Part shown: one piece after another, positions 31,167-53,493 of the stretch
How the letters are laid out: each line of letters starts with the position of its first letter
Numbering within the stretch: position 1 is the stretch's first letter
Source of the DNA: Methanosarcina sp. DH2
Lineage (GTDB): Archaea > Halobacteriota > Methanosarcinia > Methanosarcinales > Methanosarcinaceae
Reading direction: 5' to 3'
DNA length: 64,000 nt
Assembly: GCF_020804225.1 (NCBI RefSeq)
Contig: NZ_WJBI01000001.1
Location: 793,188-857,187, forward strand
Position numbers and translations under genes: made by a program
The notes under the pieces: model-generated
Told to the model about the DNA's origin: nothing
Database searches by the model: none
What the model saw: the letters and a program-made list of their open reading frames with translations, nothing else

Positions 31167-31204
31167 AGTTCCAATCTTTGTTTTAATTGATCCTGCTTGC
31201 GAAT
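31167..31204 (+). CRISPR. Relict CRISPR repeat, group 4 (single copy)
   Basis: GTTCCAATCTTTGTTTTAAT followed by TGATCCTGCTTGCGAAT keeps the start, middle and end of the live repeat with a few substitutions, in the same orientation. A possible partner ending near 31122 is too weak to call. Confidence 0.6.
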
Positions 31205-31294
31205 TTCCCGAATATGGTCATCCTAGCAACCTGGAAGGTATCCGTACGCCGGCATATATTATCACACCGCAAAAATATAATATAATATAATGTA

Positions 31295-31382
31295 ATTTGA
31301 GTTATTTGAATTTTGGAGTTATTTGAATTTTGGAGTTATTTGAATTTTTGAATTATTTGGATTTTTGAGTTATTTGAATAAT
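31295..31382. repeat. 17-bp tandem repeat, five copies
   Basis: The unit GAGTTATTTGAATTTTG repeats with period about 17 up to and across the stop codon of the acyltransferase gene. Confidence 0.75.
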
Positions 31383-32614
31383 TTATTATATAGTGTAAAA
31401 ATAGAGCTCGATAATGGTTCTTGTTTTATGTGTCCGGCACTGTTATGTGTGCGAGAATTGACCAGTTTTATATAAAAAACTCTAGAGAGTTCTACGCCAG
31501 CCATATCGATATACTTATAAAAAAAATAGCTTAACGGTATTATTAATAGTAACGACAGTACGCATGAGATTAAAACAGCTGCGCCATATGATAATACCGG
31601 GTACAGGGCCAGGAACAATGCACAGGTGAAACTGCTTATCACCAGGAAATGTATCAGGTACAGAGAGTAGGATATTTTTCCGAGGAACACCGGCACCGGG
31701 GAAGAAAAAAAGTTTTGCAAGCCCTGGCTGTTCAATAAGGCATACATTACCATGCCGGCGCCTATAATATGATAGGCTACTTTTGGTGTTTCAAAGAAGC
31801 CGTTATTAAGAAACGCGTATAAAGAATCGTTTGTCAGCGGGCTTATAGGATATGACCCAATAAACAACCCCGAAACCAGTATAATAAACAACACTATTTT
31901 ATTACCTGTTTTAAATACCTGCAACACAGGGGTCTTATTGTTGAACGTGTCAGCGAGTGCCATTCCTATTACAAAAGCCAGATAGTAAGAGTTGAGGAAA
32001 AGCACGACTGCGGCAAGATAGAACGTCCAGCGGTTTTTCAGCGACCCGAACAGTAATGCCATTGTGAAAACAAGCATCGACCCATAAAACTCGATTGTCA
32101 TTGTCCATAAGACCGGGTTGTAGTAGATGTTACCACCTAAAAAAAACGAATTCCACACCGCCTGTTTAACCGCATCGAAGATGTCCGGCGTAAAGGTCCA
32201 GTAGTGACGGTAATTACTGCCTGCAGAGACAATCATAGTTTCAATATAATAATGGTATAATCCGGCTGACGCTAATAAGAATGACAGCATTACTGCTGCA
32301 AATACCGGAATAAACAATCTTATATACCGGCGCAGTGCCCCGCTTATAATTATACTGTCGTCCCTTATTTTAAAATATTTTTGGGTCAATACATAGCCGC
32401 TCAGGACGAAGAAGATGCAGACTGAAAAGTTACCAGCGCCAATTAAGCCCAGAGGTGTGGTCGAAAAAAACCGTTCAAGGTTTCCACCGAAATGCGATGG
32501 CAGCTCACTACCATAGACCATCGCCGGAGCTAATGCGACAAAGAAATGCATTATCATAACATTAACCGCAGCTACACCGCGCAGCCCGTCAAGGTAGGTG
32601 ATTTTCCCGGACAT
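31370..32614 (-). CDS. Acyltransferase 3 family membrane protein (OafA/YrhL type)
   Basis: The 414-residue integral membrane protein opens with KITYLDGLRGVAAVNVMIMHFF, the family's D-G-x-R-G and catalytic-type His in helix 1. It continues with FFVLSGYVLTQKYF and a run of some ten helices, including KISYSLYLIHFLVI near the C-terminus. Such enzymes add acetyl or other acyl groups to surface sugars, drawing on cytosolic acyl-CoA. No SGNH domain is fused, so it is the short form. It stands alone, bounded by relict CRISPR repeats on both sides, which suggests acquisition into this region. Substrate unknown. Confidence 0.88.
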   Translation of the reverse strand: MSGKITYLDGLRGVAAVNVMIMHFFVALAPAMVYGSELPSHFGGNLERFFSTTPLGLIGAGNFSVCIFFVLSGYVLTQKYFKIRDDSIIISGALRRYIRLFIPVFAAVMLSFLLASAGLYHYYIETMIVSAGSNYRHYWTFTPDIFDAVKQAVWNSFFLGGNIYYNPVLWTMTIEFYGSMLVFTMALLFGSLKNRWTFYLAAVVLFLNSYYLAFVIGMALADTFNNKTPVLQVFKTGNKIVLFIILVSGLFIGSYPISPLTNDSLYAFLNNGFFETPKVAYHIIGAGMVMYALLNSQGLQNFFSSPVPVFLGKISYSLYLIHFLVISSFTCALFLALYPVLSYGAAVLISCVLSLLLIIPLSYFFYKYIDMAGVELSRVFYIKLVNSRTHNSAGHIKQEPLSSSIFTLYNKLFK

Positions 32615-32784
32615 ATTTATCGCTCAAAGAACATTCAGAGTATTTGGTTTAAGCTATTTGATTTAAGCTGATACAATTCTATAGTAAAGCAGTATGTAAT
32701 TATGTAATATCCGGCTCATAATAGCACGAGTGAGGAACAGGGTTGACAGTCTCCGCTTCGACTTCGTCACCACTGCTATCTTCT

Positions 32785-32896
32785 GTTTCAATCCCTGTTT
32801 TAATGGGTCTTGCTCTGGAATATGAAATAGATTTCTATTTGTTCACGCATTGTCCGTTTATTTCAATTCCTGTCTTAATAGATTTTGATCTCGAAT
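32785..32896 (+). CRISPR. Relict CRISPR repeats, group 5 (two copies, one pseudo-spacer)
   Basis: 32785-32821 (GTTTCAATCCCTGTTTTAAT ... TGCTCTGGAAT) and 32860-32896 (TTTCAATTCCTGTCTTAATA ... ATCTCGAAT) are each exactly 37 bp, the length of the live repeat. They enclose a 38-bp segment, giving a 75-bp period. This is one of the clearest relict units. Confidence 0.8.
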
Positions 32897-32935
32897 CAGA
32901 ATGATATTCAAGATAATTTGTAATATATAGCTGAA

Positions 32936-33065
32936 CTCAAGGTCAATAACTTAACTCAGGGTCAATAACTTAACTCAGGGTCAATAACTAAACTCAAGGT
33001 CAATAACTGAACTCAGGGTCAATAACTAAACTTAAGGTCAATAGCTGGACTCCGGGTCAACGTTT
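32936..33065. repeat. 19-bp tandem repeat, almost seven copies
   Basis: The unit CTCAGGGTCAATAACT[T/A]AA repeats with period 19 and increasing divergence toward the right. It lies in the gene-free stretch 32615-33277 next to relict CRISPR repeats and is non-coding. Confidence 0.85.
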
Positions 33066-33277
33066 AATGGTCAGAAAAAGTTCTTCAGCTGCTGGATATA
33101 CGACCTGATGTAAAAAAAGTATGTTGGAGTATATAAAAAACTATGTTTTTTCAATTTAACTAAAAATTCTGGAAATGTTTTTGAAAGAAACGGTATGAAA
33201 GAAATTCGGGGGGATTAGCTTCAATCCCTCTAAAACCTTATTTTAATTTTAAATTTTAGTATTTCCTTCAACTTATT

Positions 33278-33565
33278 TCAAATAATACTCCCACTATCAC
33301 TGTTAGCTATGAACACCCCATTATTAAGAATACCGCCAGGGACATTCATTATTCTGTCTTCTATCCAGACTCTGTAATTCTCAGAAATAAGACACCCTTC
33401 TTCTTTCTGGAATATTGAAGAGTGCTTAAAATAGTCCAGTTTTACGGTGTCCGGGGTTTCCTCATAGAGTCCGCATTCTTTGAATTTTCCATTTATATAA
33501 ACGTCGAATGTACCATCGTCATGGAGGATGAAATGGGTTGTCTTGTTGGCATATTTTCTAGGCAT
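33278..33565 (-). CDS. Small protein of unknown function (95 aa)
   Basis: The product (MPRKYANKTTHFILHDDGTFDVYINGKFKECGLYEETPDTVKLDYF...) is a compact beta-rich sequence with alternating aromatic and charged residues. It resembles a small OB- or beta-sandwich-type domain, but I cannot name it. No signal peptide or membrane helix. Coding character (codon pattern, ATG start, open 95 codons) supports a real gene. It is alone in its gap. Confidence 0.5.
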   Translation of the reverse strand: MPRKYANKTTHFILHDDGTFDVYINGKFKECGLYEETPDTVKLDYFKHSSIFQKEEGCLISENYRVWIEDRIMNVPGGILNNGVFIANSDSGSII

Positions 33566-33874
33566 GTTGGATCACACATTTTAACATCTTAAACAGTTGC
33601 ATGATTTACCTTTTCATCTTCATGCATAGGGTTTTGTTTACGATGTTGTTTTATTGAGGTTAGGGTTTCGTTTTTAATTTTGTTTAATTTCAGGTATATA
33701 TTACTTCCTGTTTTTATAATCCTTATAGAACTTAAAATGTTAACAGGCCGAAATAATAGAGATTCAGTTCATCATACCTGATTTTAACACCCTATTGTAT
33801 TAACCTATTATTATATATATCGACTAAAAGATAGGGCTTTGTGATAAAAACTGTAATCCATAAGGGCTCTATGT

Positions 33875-34669
33875 ATGCATACCGTACGTTCGAAAGATGG
33901 GACCATGATCACTTTCTGGAAGAGCGGTTCGGGACCGCCTCTGGTTCTAATTCACGGCAGCACCGCAGATCACACTCGCTGGAACCCCATTCTTCCAGAA
34001 CTTGAGCAAATGTTCACTGTGTATGCCGTCGACCGGAGAGGGCTTGGTAAAAGTACCGATGCAGTCAAATATTGTGTTTAGCGCGAATTCTAAGATATTG
34101 TAGCGGTTGTGAATGAAATCGCTCAACCGGTTAATCTGCTCGGTCATTTATTCGGGGTATTTTGTGCTCTTGAAGCAGCACTGCTCACGGAGAACATCAA
34201 CAAGCTGATCCTTTATGAACCGCAGGCTCCGGGCGTGAAACTTATGTCGCCGGACGTGGTGAATAAAATAAAACAGTTACTGGATGTGGACGACCGTGAG
34301 GCGGTCTTAAGCATATATATTCTTGAAGTCGGCAGGCTAACACTCGATGAACTCGAGATACTGCGTTCATTGCCAGCCTGGTCCGGACGTGTAGCAGCAG
34401 CGCACACAGTACTGCGAGAAGATCAGAAGGTTGGAGACTCCCTCGTTTTAATCCGGATCGGTTTAAATCCATGAAGATGCCTACCCTGCTTTTGCTTGGA
34501 GGCGATAGTCCCGGTATACAGCGATTTTATTAAGCAGGTAAATGCAAGCATTCCCAAACAGCACAATAGTCGTGATGCCTGGTCAGTAGCATATCGCAAT
34601 ACTGCACCAGAATTATTCATTAAAGAAGTAGTGTGGTTTCTCACCAATCAGCATATTGAGACAGAATGA
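33875..34669 (+). pseudogene. Alpha/beta hydrolase, decayed
   Basis: The frame opens MHTVRSKDGTMITFWKSGSGPPLVLIHGSTADHTRW...AVDRRGLGKS, then meets TAG (34079-34081) and TAA (34091-34093) where relatives would have Glu codons. The same frame resumes VNEIAQPVNLLGHLFGVFCALEAAL, where the nucleophile Ser of G-H-S-F-G-G is Leu. It later shifts frame near 34440 (RFNPDRFKSMKMPTLLLLGGDSP) and again near 34513, ending FLTNQHIETE at 34669. Two nonsense changes, a lost nucleophile and two shifts show long-standing decay. Confidence 0.85.
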
Positions 34670-34828
34670 CGGAAGAAAGGAAATTTTTCGCTACATCAAT
34701 GGACAGGATGTGAGGACGCTTGGCCGGACCAGTGACGTTCGGAGTTTCGCAGCCGCGGCCCACAGCCCAAGAATCCTAGATGTAACTACGTTATGCAGTT
34801 GAATTCGAAATCCCCCACTCAATTTTTT

Positions 34829-35467
34829 TCAATAATCAGCTATTTTTATGTTTACCTTATTTCCAATGTATGTATTCCCTATCATTCCCGGGGGGATAGC
34901 AGGCAATTGCACACCAATATCACAGTAAGAAAACGTATTTCCAGTTATACTTGTGCATGTCGCCCCTTCATACAAATGGAGACCGATTCTGGCTTTTGTA
35001 ATTTTATTTCCTTTGACTACGTTATCCCAGGTCTCACACAGCGTAACAGTTCCATTTGTGATCTGGTTGTTCATGATGGTATTTTCGCTGCAGGTCAACC
35101 CTGTGATGTCCACACCACAGTTATAAAAATAATTATTACGGATGGTATTATTACTGCCTGCACCCTGGAAATCAATGCCGTTCTTTTGTATTGAGAACCC
35201 GTTAATGACTGCTCCGCCCTGAGTCACCTTGAAACCGTTAACTTTTGGATAGCTTGTTCCGTATATGCTCACGAATTTCCCTGATACAGAGACATACTCG
35301 TTATATGTCCCGGAGGCTACCTGTATTGTATCACCGTTATTTGCCGCGTTTACCGCGCTTTGAATTGTTTTGTATTTGGCTGTACTTCCTGCATAAAGGG
35401 TAGCTGCTGACGCGCTCCCTGTGAGCAGGAGGGTTATTAAAATTGCCAGGATTAGTTTTCTTAACAT
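34829..35467 (-). CDS. Secreted NosD-like parallel beta-helix protein
   Basis: A signal peptide (MLRKLILAILITLLLTGSASA) precedes YKTIQSAVNAANNGDTIQVASGTYNEYVSVSGKFVSIYG, the classic entry into a right-handed parallel beta helix. Helical turns follow with N-asn ladders (NNTIRNNYFYNC, ENTIMNNQITNG, NVVKGNKITKARIGLHLYEG, SITGNTF). The family (NosD/pectate-lyase-like, PbH1 repeats) is greatly expanded in Methanosarcina surface proteins, usually with PKD or S-layer-type domains. This 212-residue member has only the helix and no anchor, so it is either released or truncated. It binds or processes polysaccharide by inference. Confidence 0.85.
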   Translation of the reverse strand: MLRKLILAILITLLLTGSASAATLYAGSTAKYKTIQSAVNAANNGDTIQVASGTYNEYVSVSGKFVSIYGTSYPKVNGFKVTQGGAVINGFSIQKNGIDFQGAGSNNTIRNNYFYNCGVDITGLTCSENTIMNNQITNGTVTLCETWDNVVKGNKITKARIGLHLYEGATCTSITGNTFSYCDIGVQLPAIPPGMIGNTYIGNKVNIKIADY

Positions 35468-35538
35468 TGTAAGTGCTCCTTTGTAAAAGAGAGAAAGCGA
35501 GAATACAATTTAAAGTTATTGATATAGTTATGCTCGGA

Positions 35539-35644
35539 ATTTCAACCCCTACTTTGGATCTTAATCACGAATCTACCACAGTTCAAGAACAAAAGCGGGT
35601 GAAATATATTTCAATTCAGTTATTAATAGACCTTATTCTCGAAT
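35539..35644 (+). CRISPR. Relict CRISPR repeats, group 6 (two copies)
   Basis: About 35539-35572 (ATTTCAACCCCTACTTTGGA ... TTAATCACGAAT) and 35608-35644 (ATTTCAATTCAGTTATTAAT ... TTATTCTCGAAT) end 72 bp apart. The second is exactly 37 bp. Same orientation as the live array. Confidence 0.65.
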
Positions 35645-35679
35645 AATTCTATATACGATAAACCATTAATTAAAAGGAT

Positions 35680-36078
35680 ATGAAAGGATTTTCCATTAAT
35701 ATAGAAGAAGCCACTCTGGAAAACGACAATTTCCGCAAGGTGCTCTATACCTCAAAACACAGCCAGCTGGTACTTATGACCCTCAAGCCCGAAGAAGACA
35801 TCGGGATGGAAGTGCATGAGGAAAACGACCAGTTTTTCCGTTTTGAGGCAGGACAGGGTAAGTGCATAATCGACGGCAACGAATACGAACTCAGTGATGG
35901 GGTCGCAGTTGTAGTGCCAGCCGGTGCAGAGCACAACATTATCAACACCTCGAAAACCGAAGAGCTGAAACTCTACACAATCTATTCCCCGGCGCACCAC
36001 AAGGACGGAATCGTTCGCGCCACAAAAGAAGAAGCCGAAGCAAATGAAGCCGACTTCGACGGCGTGACCACGGAATAA
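35680..36078 (+). CDS. Cupin-domain protein
   Basis: The 132-residue single-domain cupin has the motif 1 metal site G-M-E-V-H-E-E-N-D-Q-F-F-R-F-E (about residues 42-56) and motif 2 P-A-G-A-E-H-N-I-I-N (about 85-94). It folds as a small beta barrel that binds a metal and often a sugar or organic acid; the specific activity is unknown. The start (ATG at 35680) lies 35 bp after a relict CRISPR repeat and has a short AAAAGGA site. Another relict pair follows 190 bp after its stop, so the gene sits alone between repeats. Confidence 0.85.
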   Translation: MKGFSINIEEATLENDNFRKVLYTSKHSQLVLMTLKPEEDIGMEVHEENDQFFRFEAGQGKCIIDGNEYELSDGVAVVVPAGAEHNIINTSKTEELKLYTIYSPAHHKDGIVRATKEEAEANEADFDGVTTE

Positions 36079-36269
36079 GATCATAAGAACATAGAATAAA
36101 CTGTTACTCTCGGCCAAAAAATTGCTACGCTTTATGATCGGTAGTTGATTTAATTAAAAAAGCAAGATAAAACGTTTTATCAAAGTAAAGCGTTTTACTT
36201 TTTTATATTTAGAATTGAAAGATCGGAATTTATTTACAAATGCTGCTGACCTGTTTATTTGTATCCAGT

Positions 36270-36376
36270 GTTTCAATTCTGATTTTAGTGGATCTTGATA
36301 ATGAATTTTTGAAAATTGGTATTCCATCACTCAGAATTTGTTTCAATCCTTGTTTTAGTGGATCCAGATTCGCGAG
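36270..36376 (+). CRISPR. Relict CRISPR repeats, group 7 (best-preserved pair)
   Basis: 36270-36306 is 37 bp and differs from the live repeat at only a few positions (GTTTCAATTCTGATTTTAGT start, ATGAAT end). 36340-36376 is identical to the live repeat over its first 25 bases and then diverges (GATCCAGATTCGCGAG). The intervening 33 bp would be the spacer. Start-to-start distance is 70 bp. The pair ends 77 bp before the RNB ribonuclease gene. Confidence 0.85.
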
Positions 36377-36452
36377 CGAGAATGATTTACTACGATGGCA
36401 CAATGTTTCTTTTTTCACCATGGCGGCACGGCAGAAACAATAACTTGTAAAA

Positions 36453-38306
36453 ATGGGCATCTCTTACCACTTTTTTACTAACCAATATACATATAAGGAA
36501 AGATACCAAATTTTGCACCTAAGTGGTATTATGCCAGATATGCTCAGAGGTATTACGATCGATGACGTGACAACCCGGGACATGGATGATGCAATCTGGG
36601 TGGAAATCACGGAAAATGGCGGCTGGCACGTCGCGGTCATGGTCGCGGATGTCGCAAAGGTAGTTCCCAGGCATTCAGAGCTTGATCGGCTTGCGATGTC
36701 CCGGGTCGAGACCAGGTATTATGCAAACGGTAACAGCCCGATGTTGCCCAGGCGGCTCGCAGACGGGAAGCTTTCCCTGTGGCCGGGAGAGGCGAAGTAT
36801 GTCCTCGTCGTGGATATCATCCTCGGCATAGATCTGTCGATCCTCGAAACAAGGCTTTTGCGGACTGCGATGACCAGCGAAGCCCGGCTCGCCTTCTCTG
36901 ACATCCCCCGTATTCTATCCGATCGGGAGCACCAGCAGCATGCTCTCATCAAGCTCACAAGCCAGCTCGCAAGCGGTCTTTTGATGCAACGCCGTAACCG
37001 TGGAGCGCTGGCATTCTACGACCTGGGGCGCGGGCTGGTGACGAGTGAAGAAGGATCGCTTCGGCAATTGAGATGCAGGGAGGATACCATCGGCTACGTC
37101 ATCATCCAGGAGCTGATGATTCTCGCTAACATGGCTGTAGCAGAGTATGCGGTCAAAAATGACATTCCTATCCTTTTCCGTAACCATATAGCCCGGAGCG
37201 CTACTCCTGAGCGGGGGGACTTGCTGAAGCTGCTCGAAAGCATGGCTGTTATCCCTGAGGTAAATATAGCTACCTTCAGGCATACCGCGTACATGATGCT
37301 CAACAGAGCGGAATACGGCCCAGTCATCCTGGGTCATTTCGGACTGAACCTCGGAGCGTATACTCACTTCACCTCGCCCATCCGAAGGTATGCTGATCTC
37401 GTGAACCACCAGCAGATCCGGGCATACATCCGAAACGAGTCCTTGCCCCATTCTAAAGAAGAGATTCAGGCAATTGCATCACACGTCAACCTGACGCGCC
37501 TCGAAAACGACAAGGCTAAAAGCGAATACATGAAGGAAAAGGCGTATAGAAAAGCTGAGTCGGTCATCCTGGGGAATCGGATCGAGGATGCAAGCGATAC
37601 AGACTTCGAGCGCATCACCAAATTCCTGATCCGCAAGGGAGAAGACTGCCCCGATGCTTATTGCGATGCTTTCCGGAAACGCCTTGGCAAGCTGCCGATC
37701 ATCTGTGCAGGGCTGGTACTCCTGCAGGCTCCTGATGGCGAAAGATGGACCGGGCTTAAAAGAGCACTGCTGGAGGAAATCGCAACTGCGCCTCATCAGG
37801 CCGTCTCGATCTTCGACATCGCACAACATATACCGGGATGGCAGATGCCCGTATACGACGTGACCGAAACTGCACGGAGCAACCTGCCAGTATTCATTGC
37901 TCGGAGCGCCATTAGAGTCGATAATAGAGAGTACCAGTCCGCAGCATACGAGGACATGACAAAGAAAGGCGCCGTGCAACGGGCATCTGTAGACCTGCTC
38001 GCGGCTATTGTGGGCTTACCCGCTCCGGACTTGAAGATCACGATCGCAGATCAGTCCGCCAGTAAGGAAGAGATGACGATTAACACGTCGAAAGACCCGA
38101 TTTTTGCCCTTCAGGAGTATTGTCAGGCGAAGAAACTTCCCTTGCCAGCTTATTCGTTTGAGATGGAAGGCTCGACCAACAAGCCGATTTTCACCTGTAC
38201 CTGCACCTTTGGGTCCTCGACCCGCACCGGACAGGCGGGAAAAAAGCAAAGGGCCAAACGGCTGGCAGCTAGAGCAATGATATTGACTTTAATATCTGAG
38301 AGTTGA
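36453..38306 (+). CDS. RNB-domain ribonuclease (RNase II/R type) with C-terminal dsRNA-binding domain
   Basis: The RNB catalytic core begins almost at the N-terminus: IDDVTTRDMDDAIW places the four metal-binding aspartates at about D37, D43, D45 and D46, and FTSPIRRYADLVNHQQ (about 310-325) is the second core motif. The cold-shock and S1 domains of RNase II/R are absent. Residues about 545-612 (DPIFALQEYCQAKKLPLPAYSFEMEG ... CTCTFGSSTRTGQAGKKQRAKRLAARAMILTLI) form a double-stranded-RNA-binding motif with its KK-x-AK-x-AA helix. A less clear middle region lies at about 375-540. It should degrade RNA 3' to 5', recruited by duplexes. The start may be ATG 36453 or 36531. The gene is GC-richer than its neighbours. 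Confidence 0.85.
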   Translation: MGISYHFFTNQYTYKERYQILHLSGIMPDMLRGITIDDVTTRDMDDAIWVEITENGGWHVAVMVADVAKVVPRHSELDRLAMSRVETRYYANGNSPMLPRRLADGKLSLWPGEAKYVLVVDIILGIDLSILETRLLRTAMTSEARLAFSDIPRILSDREHQQHALIKLTSQLASGLLMQRRNRGALAFYDLGRGLVTSEEGSLRQLRCREDTIGYVIIQELMILANMAVAEYAVKNDIPILFRNHIARSATPERGDLLKLLESMAVIPEVNIATFRHTAYMMLNRAEYGPVILGHFGLNLGAYTHFTSPIRRYADLVNHQQIRAYIRNESLPHSKEEIQAIASHVNLTRLENDKAKSEYMKEKAYRKAESVILGNRIEDASDTDFERITKFLIRKGEDCPDAYCDAFRKRLGKLPIICAGLVLLQAPDGERWTGLKRALLEEIATAPHQAVSIFDIAQHIPGWQMPVYDVTETARSNLPVFIARSAIRVDNREYQSAAYEDMTKKGAVQRASVDLLAAIVGLPAPDLKITIADQSASKEEMTINTSKDPIFALQEYCQAKKLPLPAYSFEMEGSTNKPIFTCTCTFGSSTRTGQAGKKQRAKRLAARAMILTLISES

Positions 38307-38356
38307 TATCGAATTCGAGATTGTAATGAGAAGCTCCGTGCCGCCGTGGTTCTTTG

Positions 38357-38393
38357 GTTTCAATAATTGTTTTAATGAGTCTTGCTATTGAAT
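38357..38393 (+). CRISPR. Relict CRISPR repeat, group 8 (single copy)
   Basis: GTTTCAATAATTGTTTTAAT ... GAGTCTTGCTATTGAAT is exactly 37 bp, in the same orientation, 51 bp after the stop of the RNB gene. With group 7 it brackets that gene. Confidence 0.75.
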
Positions 38394-38430: not shown

Positions 38431-38480
38431 TTATCATATTCTTTCCGTATGTCGATTATCATATTCTTTCCGTATGTCGA
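38431..38480. repeat. 25-bp tandem duplication across the fic 3' end
   Basis: TTATCATATTCTTTCCGTAT plus GTCGA occurs twice head to tail (38431-38455 and 38456-38480). The stop codon of the fic gene lies in the second copy, so the end of the gene has been duplicated downstream. Confidence 0.8.
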
Positions 38481-38866
38481 ATTATCCATCTTTTTATTTC
38501 TTCAATTGACATTTCATTTTCTGTTGTAGCTACTCTAATTATGAACTCTATCATCTCTTCATCTGTAGATGTAAACTTGTATCCTCCATCTTCAATAATA
38601 AAATTCATGGCTTCATAACCAGTTCTTTTATTCCCATTGAAAAACGGATGTTTTGCAACAATAGTATAGACTATTATTGCGGCATTTTCAAAAATAGTAT
38701 TAGATTCTTTTATTAAATATTCAAACATTAATTCCAATGTAGCTAAAGAACGTATTGTGGGGGTATAATCATCTGGGTCTTTAAATTTATCGTAATCTAT
38801 AACCTTTTGATGAATTTTCAAAATTTCAATTAAACTGATCAAAGCATCACTTTCTTCCAAGTGCAT
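38459..38866 (-). CDS. Fic/Doc-family toxin
   Basis: The 135-residue protein has the Fic core HPFFNGNKRTG at about residues 73-83 with catalytic His73, and the helix before it (ENAAIIVYTIVAK). Length and the HPF-x-N/D-GNKR form match the Doc branch, whose members modify EF-Tu by phosphate transfer, whereas longer Fic proteins attach AMP; which applies cannot be read with certainty. No inhibitory (S/T)xxxE(G/N) helix is obvious within the protein. Its start overlaps the upstream partner gene by 20 bp, a typical toxin-antitoxin arrangement. The pair lies next to the leader-distal end of the CRISPR array. Confidence 0.85.
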   Translation of the reverse strand: MHLEESDALISLIEILKIHQKVIDYDKFKDPDDYTPTIRSLATLELMFEYLIKESNTIFENAAIIVYTIVAKHPFFNGNKRTGYEAMNFIIEDGGYKFTSTDEEMIEFIIRVATTENEMSIEEIKRWIIRHTERI

Positions 38867-39098
38867 CTAAAATATTTTTATCTTCTACCAGCTTTTTTTC
38901 TAACCAAACATTAAAATCTTTTATGTGAGATTCCTTATGTTCTTGTTTTTCTTCTTTTGGAAACATTGGTTTATAATCTTCTTTCTTTTTAACTTCGCTA
39001 ATAAGTCTCTTAACTACTGAATTATAAGACTCTTCAGGAGCTAATTTTAGCTCTCTAAGAGACTCTTTTACATCCGGATCTATAGCTATTGTAGACAT
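38847..39098 (-). CDS. Antitoxin partner of the Fic/Doc toxin
   Basis: The 83-residue protein begins MSTIAIDPDVKESLRELKLAPEESYNSVVKRLISEVKKK, a ribbon-helix-helix-like N-terminus of the kind found in archaeal VapB/RelB-type antitoxins. It then has a charged, probably flexible C-terminal part (KDFNVWLEKKLVEDKNIL) suited to wrap the toxin. It precedes and overlaps the Fic gene, so it is translated first. It probably also represses its own promoter, located just upstream in the AT-rich 39099-39150 region. Confidence 0.75.
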   Translation of the reverse strand: MSTIAIDPDVKESLRELKLAPEESYNSVVKRLISEVKKKEDYKPMFPKEEKQEHKESHIKDFNVWLEKKLVEDKNILDALGRK

Positions 39099-39443: not shown

Positions 39444-42325
39444 GTTTCAATCCTTGTTTTAGTGGATCTTGCTCGCGAATTTTTAAGCGATGTAGACGAC
39501 ACAGAGATGGAGTATGGTTTCAATCCTTGTTTTAGTGGATCTTGCTCGCGAATTTTGAAGTGTGGGACGAAGACGAAGAGCAGTGGGGTTTCAATCCTTG
39601 TTTTAGTGGATCTTGCTCGCGAATACTCATTCAGATGCTACGAAACTGCTAGGAATCCCTGGGTTTCAATCCTTGTTTTAGTGGATCTTGCTCGCGAATC
39701 AATCTGAATTGCTGCATTGCCAGCGGACCAATGAGTTTCAATCCTTGTTTTAGTGGATCTTGCTCGCGAATAGACACCAAATTCTTTAATGAAAATCGAT
39801 ACCCCGGGTTTCAATCCTTGTTTTAGTGGATCTTGCTCGCGAATAGTTGTGCGGGGGTCACTTCTACCATAGTCATTTTTGTTTCAATCCTTGTTTTAGT
39901 GGATCTTGCTCGCGAATAGTTGTGCGGGGGTCACTTCTACCATAGTCATTTTTGTTTCAATCCTTGTTTTAGTGGATCTTGCTCGCGAATTGTAATTATT
40001 CAAAAACCAACCGGGGAAAGATATTTCCCGTTTCAATCCTTGTTTTAGTGGATCTTGCTCGCGAATCTTCGATAAGATTCTCGGAATGGTAGACAAAATG
40101 AGTTTCAATCCTTGTTTTAGTGGATCTTGCTCGCGAATATATAAATCAATCGACTTGCTCTGAATTAAGAATTGTTTCAATCCTTGTTTTAGTGGATCTT
40201 GCTCGCGAATATGGGGATTCGCAATGGATCTCCGCCTGGAAGACAAGTTTCAATCCTTGTTTTAGTGGATCTTGCTCGCGAATTTATTTAGAGGAACCGG
40301 GAATCAAGTGTTAGTGTGGTTTCAATCCTTGTTTTAGTGGATCTTGCTCGCGAATCCGGAAAGGTCATATTCTGAATTGTGAGCGTAAAAAGGTTTCAAT
40401 CCTTGTTTTAGTGGATCTTGCTCGCGAATGAGAGTATGGTGTATCATTTTGAGTCATTTGGATCGTTTCAATCCTTGTTTTAGTGGATCTTGCTCGCGAA
40501 TCAAATTTCGGTGCTCCGTTGTTGTTTGAGCCTGAAGTTTCAATCCTTGTTTTAGTGGATCTTGCTCGCGAATCAGATTGAAAAAATAGGATTCCTTATG
40601 GATGCCATGTTTCAATCCTTGTTTTAGTGGATCTTGCTCGCGAATGCTGAGCCGTCTTTTTCAAAATCGCTGAAAATATTGTTTCAATCCTTGTTTTAGT
40701 GGATCTTGCTCGCGAATGGACCGGGTAGAGCAGTCTGTAACATCTCAAGTTGGTTTCAATCCTTGTTTTAGTGGATCTTGCTCGCGAATCCTGAATAGAG
40801 CAGTTAATGACCCTCGTGATTACAGTTTCAATCCTTGTTTTAGTGGATCTTGCTCGCGAATCAGTACACTTTTTGTATGACCTGCAAGATAGTCTTGTTT
40901 CAATCCTTGTTTTAGTGGATCTTGCTCGCGAATAAGATTTACTTACTTTTGTTTTACCACAATTCTTGAAGTTTCAATCCTTGTTTTAGTGGATCTTGCT
41001 CGCGAATATTCCCGATGGTGTCTTTCAGGCACCCGGTAGTCTTGGTTTCAATCCTTGTTTTAGTGGATCTTGCTCGCGAATACTATGAATAATACCACAA
41101 GGACAATGCTTGCAGCATGTTTCAATCCTTGTTTTAGTGGATCTTGCTCGCGAATATTCCCGATGGTGTCTTTCAGGCACCCGGTAGTCTTGGTTTCAAT
41201 CCTTGTTTTAGTGGATCTTGCTCGCGAATACTATGAATAATACCACAAGGACAATGCTTGCAGCATGTTTCAATCCTTGTTTTAGTGGATCTTGCTCGCG
41301 AATCCAGAAATAACACGTATATGTATAAGAGCAGTATTTTTGTTTCAATCCTTGTTTTAGTGGATCTTGCTCGCGAATCTCTTCAGGACAGCTTTTCTTA
41401 AGCAGGACTATAAGGGTTTCAATCCTTGTTTTAGTGGATCTTGCTCGCGAATATGTGTAGCATTTCGCTGTACTGCAAGAATCAGTTTCCGTTTCAATCC
41501 TTGTTTTAGTGGATCTTGCTCGCGAATCTAACGGGGGCTTTATACAGTATGTGGGTGGGTGATGTTTCAATCCTTGTTTTAGTGGATCTTGCTCGCGAAT
41601 AATTATCCGCTCCGTCCTCGTATCATATCAGCTCAAGTTTCAATCCTTGTTTTAGTGGATCTTGCTCGCGAATAGGATAATATGGGGGGTTTAAATCCCC
41701 CAATTCAAGTTTCAATCCTTGTTTTAGTGGATCTTGCTCGCGAATCTCTGGCGTGAGAGCTCCAATTACACCAGGAAGAGTTTCAATCCTTGTTTTAGTG
41801 GATCTTGCTCGCGAATAGGAGCATAAGAGAGTACAGCTTTTATCCTACACTTATGTTTCAATCCTTGTTTTAGTGGATCTTGCTCGCGAATGAGTTTGCA
41901 GGCAGTGGAGCTGGGAGCTTCGACAAGTTTCAATCCTTGTTTTAGTGGATCTTGCTCGCGAATAAAGTTCAATTCTTACCATGTTCGGTTTCACCTTTGG
42001 TTTCAATCCTTGTTTTAGTGGATCTTGCTCGCGAATTGGTCCCTTTGTATTTTCCTATGATGGTGTTGAGTTTCAATCCTTGTTTTAGTGGATCTTGCTC
42101 GCGAATACCGATTACTTTTCCTGTACCATCCGACTCCTTGACAGTTTCAATCCTTGTTTTAGTGGATCTTGCTCGCGAATTGACCAGGTGTACATCTTCC
42201 CGGCTACGGTATGATGTTTCAATCCTTGTTTTAGTGGATCTTGCTCGCGAATGCGGGCAACTTCTTTTTGAGTATATAAGCCGGTTGAGTTTCAATCCTT
42301 GTTTTAGTGGATCTTGCTCGCGAAT
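39444..42325 (-). CRISPR. CRISPR array, 40 repeats and 39 spacers (type I-B)
   Basis: A 37-bp repeat (plus strand GTTTCAATCC ... GCTCGCGAAT) appears 40 times, apparently without mismatch, from 39444-39480 to 42289-42325. Spacers are about 33-38 bp. Read on the minus strand the repeat ends ATTGAAAC, the 8-nt crRNA 5' handle used in type I-B systems. Together with the AT-rich leader on the right this indicates leftward transcription, newest spacers at the right. Two duplications are visible: spacer 39845-39880 equals 39918-39953, and the pair 41008-41118 equals 41156-41266. The array lies just downstream of cas4. Confidence 0.98.
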
Positions 42326-52946: not shown

Positions 52947-53071
52947 AGGTGTTACTTATATTTTGTTTTTCTACCCATATCGTGCTTTCAGGCGTAAGAA
53001 ATAGCCAGGTACCAGGATGGACAGGTAAGAAAAAAAGTTTGCTGGTCCGTGTGCCTGTCAGGATGAAAAAC

Positions 53072-53493
53072 TAAAAAGAAAGTAGGAGAGAAAGTGGGAA
53101 AGAAAGTGGGAAAGAGAAGTGGAAAAGAAAAATAAGGAAGAAAGGTAGAGAAGGAAAATAGAGAAGAAAAGTGGGGAAGAGAAGTGGGGAAAAGAAATGG
53201 GGAAGAGAAGTGGGAAAGAGATGTGGGGAAGAGAAGTGGGGAAAAGAAATGGGGAAGAGAAGTGGGAAAGAGATGTGGGGAAGAGAAGTGGGAAAGAGAT
53301 GTGGGGAAGAGAAGTGGGGAAAAGAAATGGGGAAGAGAAGTGGGAAAGAGATGTGGGGAAGAGAAGTGGGAAAGAGATGTGGGGAAGAGAAGTGGGGAAA
53401 AGAAATGGGGAAGAGAAGTGGGAAAGAGATGTGGGGAAGAGAAGTGGGGAAGAGAAGTGGGAAAGAGAAGTGGGAAAGAAAAATCGGAGAGGC
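53072..53493 (+). repeat. Long purine-rich tandem repeat (13-bp period)
   Basis: About 420 bp consist of G/A on the plus strand with only isolated T. The unit is a 13-mer of the type GGGGAAGAGAAGT with variants; the marker GGGGAAAAGAAAT returns at 52- and 78-bp steps (4 and 6 units). Because 13 is not a multiple of three, several frames on both strands stay open, which produces artificial long frames. Such tracts can form triplex DNA. Confidence 0.9.

Follow-up and report, generated by a model that had tools for sequence, protein, structure and literature searches.

A gene of Methanosarcina sp. DH2 was predicted to encode an active 3'-to-5' RNB exoribonuclease in which tandem double-stranded RNA-binding domains (dsRBDs) replace the OB-fold clamps of RNase II and RNase R. 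The enzyme belongs to a clade borne mainly on mobile elements in the collections searched and would have been acquired and kept by Methanosarcina. This reading was given a probability of about 0.6. Catalytic activity, the dsRNA substrate, the direction of transfer and the cellular target are the parts of it that we infer. The window analysed was a stretch of 64,000 nucleotides, and the features of the gene and its surroundings are listed in Table 1.

Table 1. Features of the RNB-dsRBD gene and its surroundings (positions in the window).
Feature	Position	Strand	Evidence or remark
Degenerate orphan CRISPR repeat	36270..36306	-	7 mismatches; locus relic
Orphan CRISPR repeat upstream of the gene	36340..36377	-	Rfam CRISPR-DR7, 39.3 bits, above threshold
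Likely TATA-like element (ACTTGTAAAA) and conserved 5' leader	36441..36530	+	Alignable in all ten orthologues
RNB-dsRBD exoribonuclease gene (predicted)	36531..38306	+	591 aa counted from Met27 of the listed ORF
RNB catalytic domain	36552..37433	+	PF00773, E 4.5e-64; Foldseek RNase R 8cdv, E 2.9e-17
Catalytic aspartates D11, D17, D19, D20 (591-aa numbering)	36561..36590	+	Invariant in 16-row family alignment A1
TSPIRRYADL motif	37371..37400	+	T281, S282, P283, R285, R286, D289 and L290 invariant in A1
Helical linker region, no S1 domain	37434..37793	+	All-helical in AlphaFold2 model; no Pfam S1
First, divergent dsRBD (alpha-beta-beta-beta-alpha)	37794..38012	+	Models; Foldseek; alignment with bacterial relatives
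Second, canonical dsRBD (LQE helix, KKxxAK motif)	38097..38300	+	PF00035, E 1.2e-15; model; Foldseek
Degenerate orphan CRISPR repeat downstream	38357..38393	-	8 mismatches; locus relic
CRISPR array (neighbour only), 40 repeats of 37 nt	39444..42325	-	Minus-strand repeat orientation

The listed open reading frame spans 36453-38306 on the plus strand (617 aa). Ten Methanosarcina orthologues were aligned and several had the frame broken by stops or indels, all of which lay 5' of the ATG at 36531. The start was therefore placed at Met27, giving the 591-aa protein; translation could also begin at Met30 (36540). Most sequence further upstream than the conserved leader was not alignable among the orthologues, and the TATA-like element in the leader probably has a promoter role. 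Pairwise dN/dS among the Methanosarcina orthologues was 0.125-0.262 with a mean of 0.17. Purifying selection on the gene in the genus is strong. A pseudogene or relic was ruled out by this value and by the position of all in-frame stops before the true start. The gene was described in the initial annotation as richer in GC than its neighbours and this was confirmed (0.54 compared to about 0.40 locally).

The protein belongs to the RNase II/RNB superfamily, as evidenced by an RNB domain (residues 34-327 in the listed-ORF numbering) carrying the four catalytic aspartates. Alignment A1 comprised Methanosarcina, cyanobacterial, actinobacterial and proteobacterial members; the aspartates and the SPIRRYADL motif had been reported as intact from the first reading, and the aspartates and TSPxRR were invariant in it. 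The absence of the usual cold-shock and S1 domains was likewise upheld, with no Pfam match to CSD, OB_RNB or S1 in the protein at E<=1. The layout of RNase R and RNase II, with N-terminal CSD1 and CSD2 and a C-terminal S1 OB fold, was not found. In the predicted model the RNB domain lies at the very start and the dsRBDs at the end. RNase R was the best PDB and the best Foldseek match, with a modest TM-score of about 0.44 for the whole protein. The score against the NCBIfam RNase R model TIGR02063 was 211.5 bits compared to a curated cut-off of 597.85. On profile scores the protein is RNB-related and is not an RNase R equivalog. No RNase III catalytic domain was present and TIGR02191 matched through the dsRBD part only. 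The full-length AlphaFold2 model had a mean pLDDT of 79, and the RNB domain was partly poor in it (<60 around residues 221-290).

The structure prediction and domain search proposed in the initial annotation were carried out. The C-terminal dsRBD that it had noted was matched by Pfam dsrm PF00035 (residues 552-612 in the listed-ORF numbering), but the count of one did not hold. In the full-length model the RNB domain was followed by a helical linker and two domains of alpha-beta-beta-beta-alpha fold, spanning residues 422-494 and 523-590, and modelling the last 171 residues on their own gave an agreeing result. Used as a Foldseek query, the C-terminal model matched the tandem dsRBDs of TRBP, DRB4 and NF90 at E 3e-9 to 1e-6. 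The matches spanning both domains were the tandem dsRBDs 7zpk, 5n8l, 2n3f and 5dv7, and the proteins matched were TARBP2, TRBP, Loquacious, DRB4 and NF90. As the models and the Foldseek matches agree, two tandem dsRBDs were assigned, the first being divergent. The first lines up with the region of the first dsRBD in bacterial relatives; it is divergent and may lack RNA binding. The second matched 1di2 as a single domain (rmsd 1.6 over 68 columns).

The layout was thought at first to be unlike any standard RNase II or RNase R. This holds, but the layout is shared by a whole clade, defined here as an RNB domain, a linker and one to three dsRBDs with a monophyletic RNB domain. Among bacterial plasmids 172 records matched, 41 of them with at least 80% of the query covered, and identity was roughly 27-34%. 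RNB and dsrm were both found in 10/10 plasmid relatives tested, several of which had two or three dsrm stretches. The closest relatives outside Methanosarcina came from the scan of viral contigs (35-41% identity, contigs of 126-536 kb). A terminase large subunit was encoded on related contigs of 323, 437, 536, 143, 202, 115 and 94 kb, and some of the related viral contigs encoded ThyX, a PurZ-like synthetase, a D12 methyltransferase or RlaP. Based on these genes several of the related contigs are jumbo phages. Among 50,697 records of isolated phages none matched over 80% of the protein length. The term mobile-element family refers to the collections searched, namely plasmid records, viral contigs, isolated phage records and archaeal genomes. 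Within Methanosarcina the gene was present in 11 of the 31 genomes of the genus, and it was Methanosarcina alone that gave full-length matches in a sample of 394 genomes across the archaeal phylum. Beside or near the RNB-dsRBD gene on Pseudomonas and Streptomyces plasmids a DndC/PAPS-reductase-like gene was observed (L021, 7121-7921; L092, 6121-6921; L022, 4491-6038). The gene of L021 gave weak PADLOC matches to BrxP, SspD and DndC.

A phylogenetic tree of the RNB domain placed the dsRBD-bearing proteins on one side of a 100/99 branch and the canonical phage and archaeal RNBs on the other. By this tree the RNB-dsRBD layout is a monophyletic clade and is not unique to this gene. The Methanosarcina proteins formed a group with the viral contigs L093-L095 and L099, with moderate support (94/83). 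The donor is uncertain because this branch is only moderately supported and bacterial chromosomes were not evenly covered. The GC content, the patchy distribution and the tree position suggest transfer into Methanosarcina, and the enzyme is most likely of mobile-element descent.

In the proposed mechanism the C-terminal tandem dsRBDs would take the place of the cold-shock and S1 clamps of RNase II and RNase R and would anchor the enzyme to RNA duplexes or hairpins. The unguarded RNB channel would then thread the RNA, with hydrolytic decay from the 3' end. In RNase R the RNB domain alone suffices to unwind structured RNA, a role of the CSDs as a barrier against duplexes is discussed, and the S1 domain and K/R tail aid duplex binding (PMC12320835). 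An RNB-only fragment was functional in vivo (PMC10579198). Since the CSDs are gone here and dsRBDs are added to a core able to unwind alone, a duplex-tolerant, dsRNA-anchored 3'-5' exoribonuclease is expected. In the collections searched, the clade is borne mainly on very large mobile elements, namely jumbo phages and big plasmids. The gene would have been acquired by an ancestor of part of Methanosarcina and then retained by purifying selection. Its location next to CRISPR arrays would be an inherited position at a CRISPR-prone locus. The protein represents a natural exchange of substrate-recognition modules on an exonuclease fold that is among the best studied, with OB clamps out and dsRBDs in. 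It offers a natural test of two views, the exclusion of duplex RNA from RNB enzymes by CSDs and the melting of structure by the RNB core alone, and it defines a gene family of giant phages and large plasmids.

No publication describing the combination of RNB and dsRBD was found in the literature. The protein shares the RNB core, the catalytic aspartates and the SPxRRY motif with RNase R and RNase II (COG0557, TIGR02063). It differs from them in having tandem dsRBDs instead of CSD1, CSD2, S1 and the K/R tail, it lies in a separate clade, and its score is far under the TIGR02063 cut-off. Canonical archaeal RNBs sit on the opposite side of the tree. Accessory domains are reduced or rudimentary in the minimal RNBs Deinococcus RNase II (2r7d) and Haloferax RNase R (PMC12320835). 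These resemble the present protein in being cut down but, as described, have no dsRBDs. RNase III also joins a nuclease to a C-terminal dsRBD, and its dsRBDs superpose at about 1.2-2 A; however, the present protein has no RNase III domain and is expected to be an exonuclease and not an endonuclease. TRBP, DRB4 and NF90 share the dsRBD pair on a short linker but are eukaryotic, non-catalytic RNA-binding proteins.

A role in defence had been considered conceivable. No PADLOC model matched the protein, which is therefore not a known defence protein, and ten annotated plasmid contexts contained neither cas genes nor a constant partner gene (two further records were unannotated). A defence role was not supported. 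Alternatively, TRBP-like tandem dsRBDs could feed an OB-less RNB core in a mobile-element family of dsRNA-directed exoribonucleases, serving giant phages and megaplasmids in RNA-level counter-defence or silencing against structured guide, antisense or defence-system RNAs and later domesticated by Methanosarcina. Within the collections searched, occurrence on large mobile elements and in a single genus of archaea is consistent with this, as are dsRBDs suggesting a duplex target and the lack of a fixed operon partner, which is usual for accessory genes. The plasmid neighbours are mostly hypothetical proteins, however, and long purifying selection on chromosomes argues against it, making this an unlikely account. 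A housekeeping substitute for RNase R, clearing structured mRNA or rRNA fragments beside the archaeal exosome, would explain that selection. The gene stands alone with its own conserved leader and gave the sole RNB match in the genome. It is dispensable, though, as the other Methanosarcina genomes searched show no match, and with only those 11 carriers a housekeeping role is quite unlikely.

It is highly improbable that the enzyme is a CRISPR accessory nuclease acting in the trimming or turnover of crRNA from the array next to it, as had been suggested for hairpin-containing crRNA precursors. The nearby array was confirmed together with cas4, cas2, cas1, Cas6-like and cas3 genes, and in Methanosarcina CRISPR repeats accompany the gene at its locus in every case. 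RNase R trims type III-A crRNAs in Staphylococcus (PMC9762709), which is a precedent. The survey of neighbourhoods nevertheless found a single orthologous locus. The gene usually lies just after a conserved cupin gene and is followed by variable genes and CRISPR-Cas. As the loci are orthologous, the carriers are not independent evidence of function. In G004, G013 and G028 arrays were present at the cupin locus but the gene was missing, while G005 had the gene and no Cas1 match. Cas1 types differed by species and the gene stayed while cas subtypes were swapped. Above-cut-off Cas10 was no commoner in carriers (1/11) than in non-carriers (5/20). Conserved cas linkage across unrelated hosts, as for a Cas protein, was not found. 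The repeat stem of the array is 5 bp, and such a stem is too short for a dsRBD. A dedicated Cas6-like gene also appears to be present; it was assigned by our own reading and gave no NCBIfam match. A CRISPR function was rejected on the locus survey and the Cas1 and Cas10 searches. The linkage is positional and within one genus, reflecting a single shared ancestral locus.

The gene had also been described as bracketed by repeat relics. All three relics were recovered, with zero chance matches in 20 shuffles. The repeat 153-191 nt ahead of the start codon was kept in 8/10 orthologues. Orphan repeats flank the gene on both sides and reach past the cupin gene. In 26 related stretches all 71 orphan repeats had the orientation of the array. 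The simplest reading is that they mark the eroded trailer end of an old array into which genes have moved, RNB-dsRBD among them. A creA-like crRNA control by an upstream mini-array was rejected: the best match of the pseudo-spacer to the promoter was 19/36, none of the array spacers reached 24 matching positions with the gene, and in many genomes orphan repeats occur all over the locus. Regulation of the gene by the upstream repeat is unproven because the pseudo-spacer has no notable promoter match.

Other observations were made at the locus. Orphan repeats outside arrays extended over many kb between ordinary genes, at 31168-38393 in the window and also in L025-L034, L066, L072, L078 and L079. 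CRISPR-Cas cassettes of differing subtypes occupied the cupin locus in L025-L034 and L065-L078, with Cas1 identity down to 23%. Duplicated spacers at 39845-39953 and 41008-41266 (one adjacent pair and two spacers as a repeated block) are a sign of internal array duplication. A Fic/DOC-family protein was encoded at 38459-39098 on the minus strand with a DUF7557/VAPB-like antitoxin upstream. These are likely a toxin-antitoxin pair, and the pair was kept near the RNB-dsRBD gene in L029, L031 and L034. Elsewhere in the window a nearly purine-only tandem repeat tract of GGGGAAGAGAAGTG-type units with a GC skew >0.5 was located at 53060-53480, directly before a GNAT-like acetyltransferase gene.
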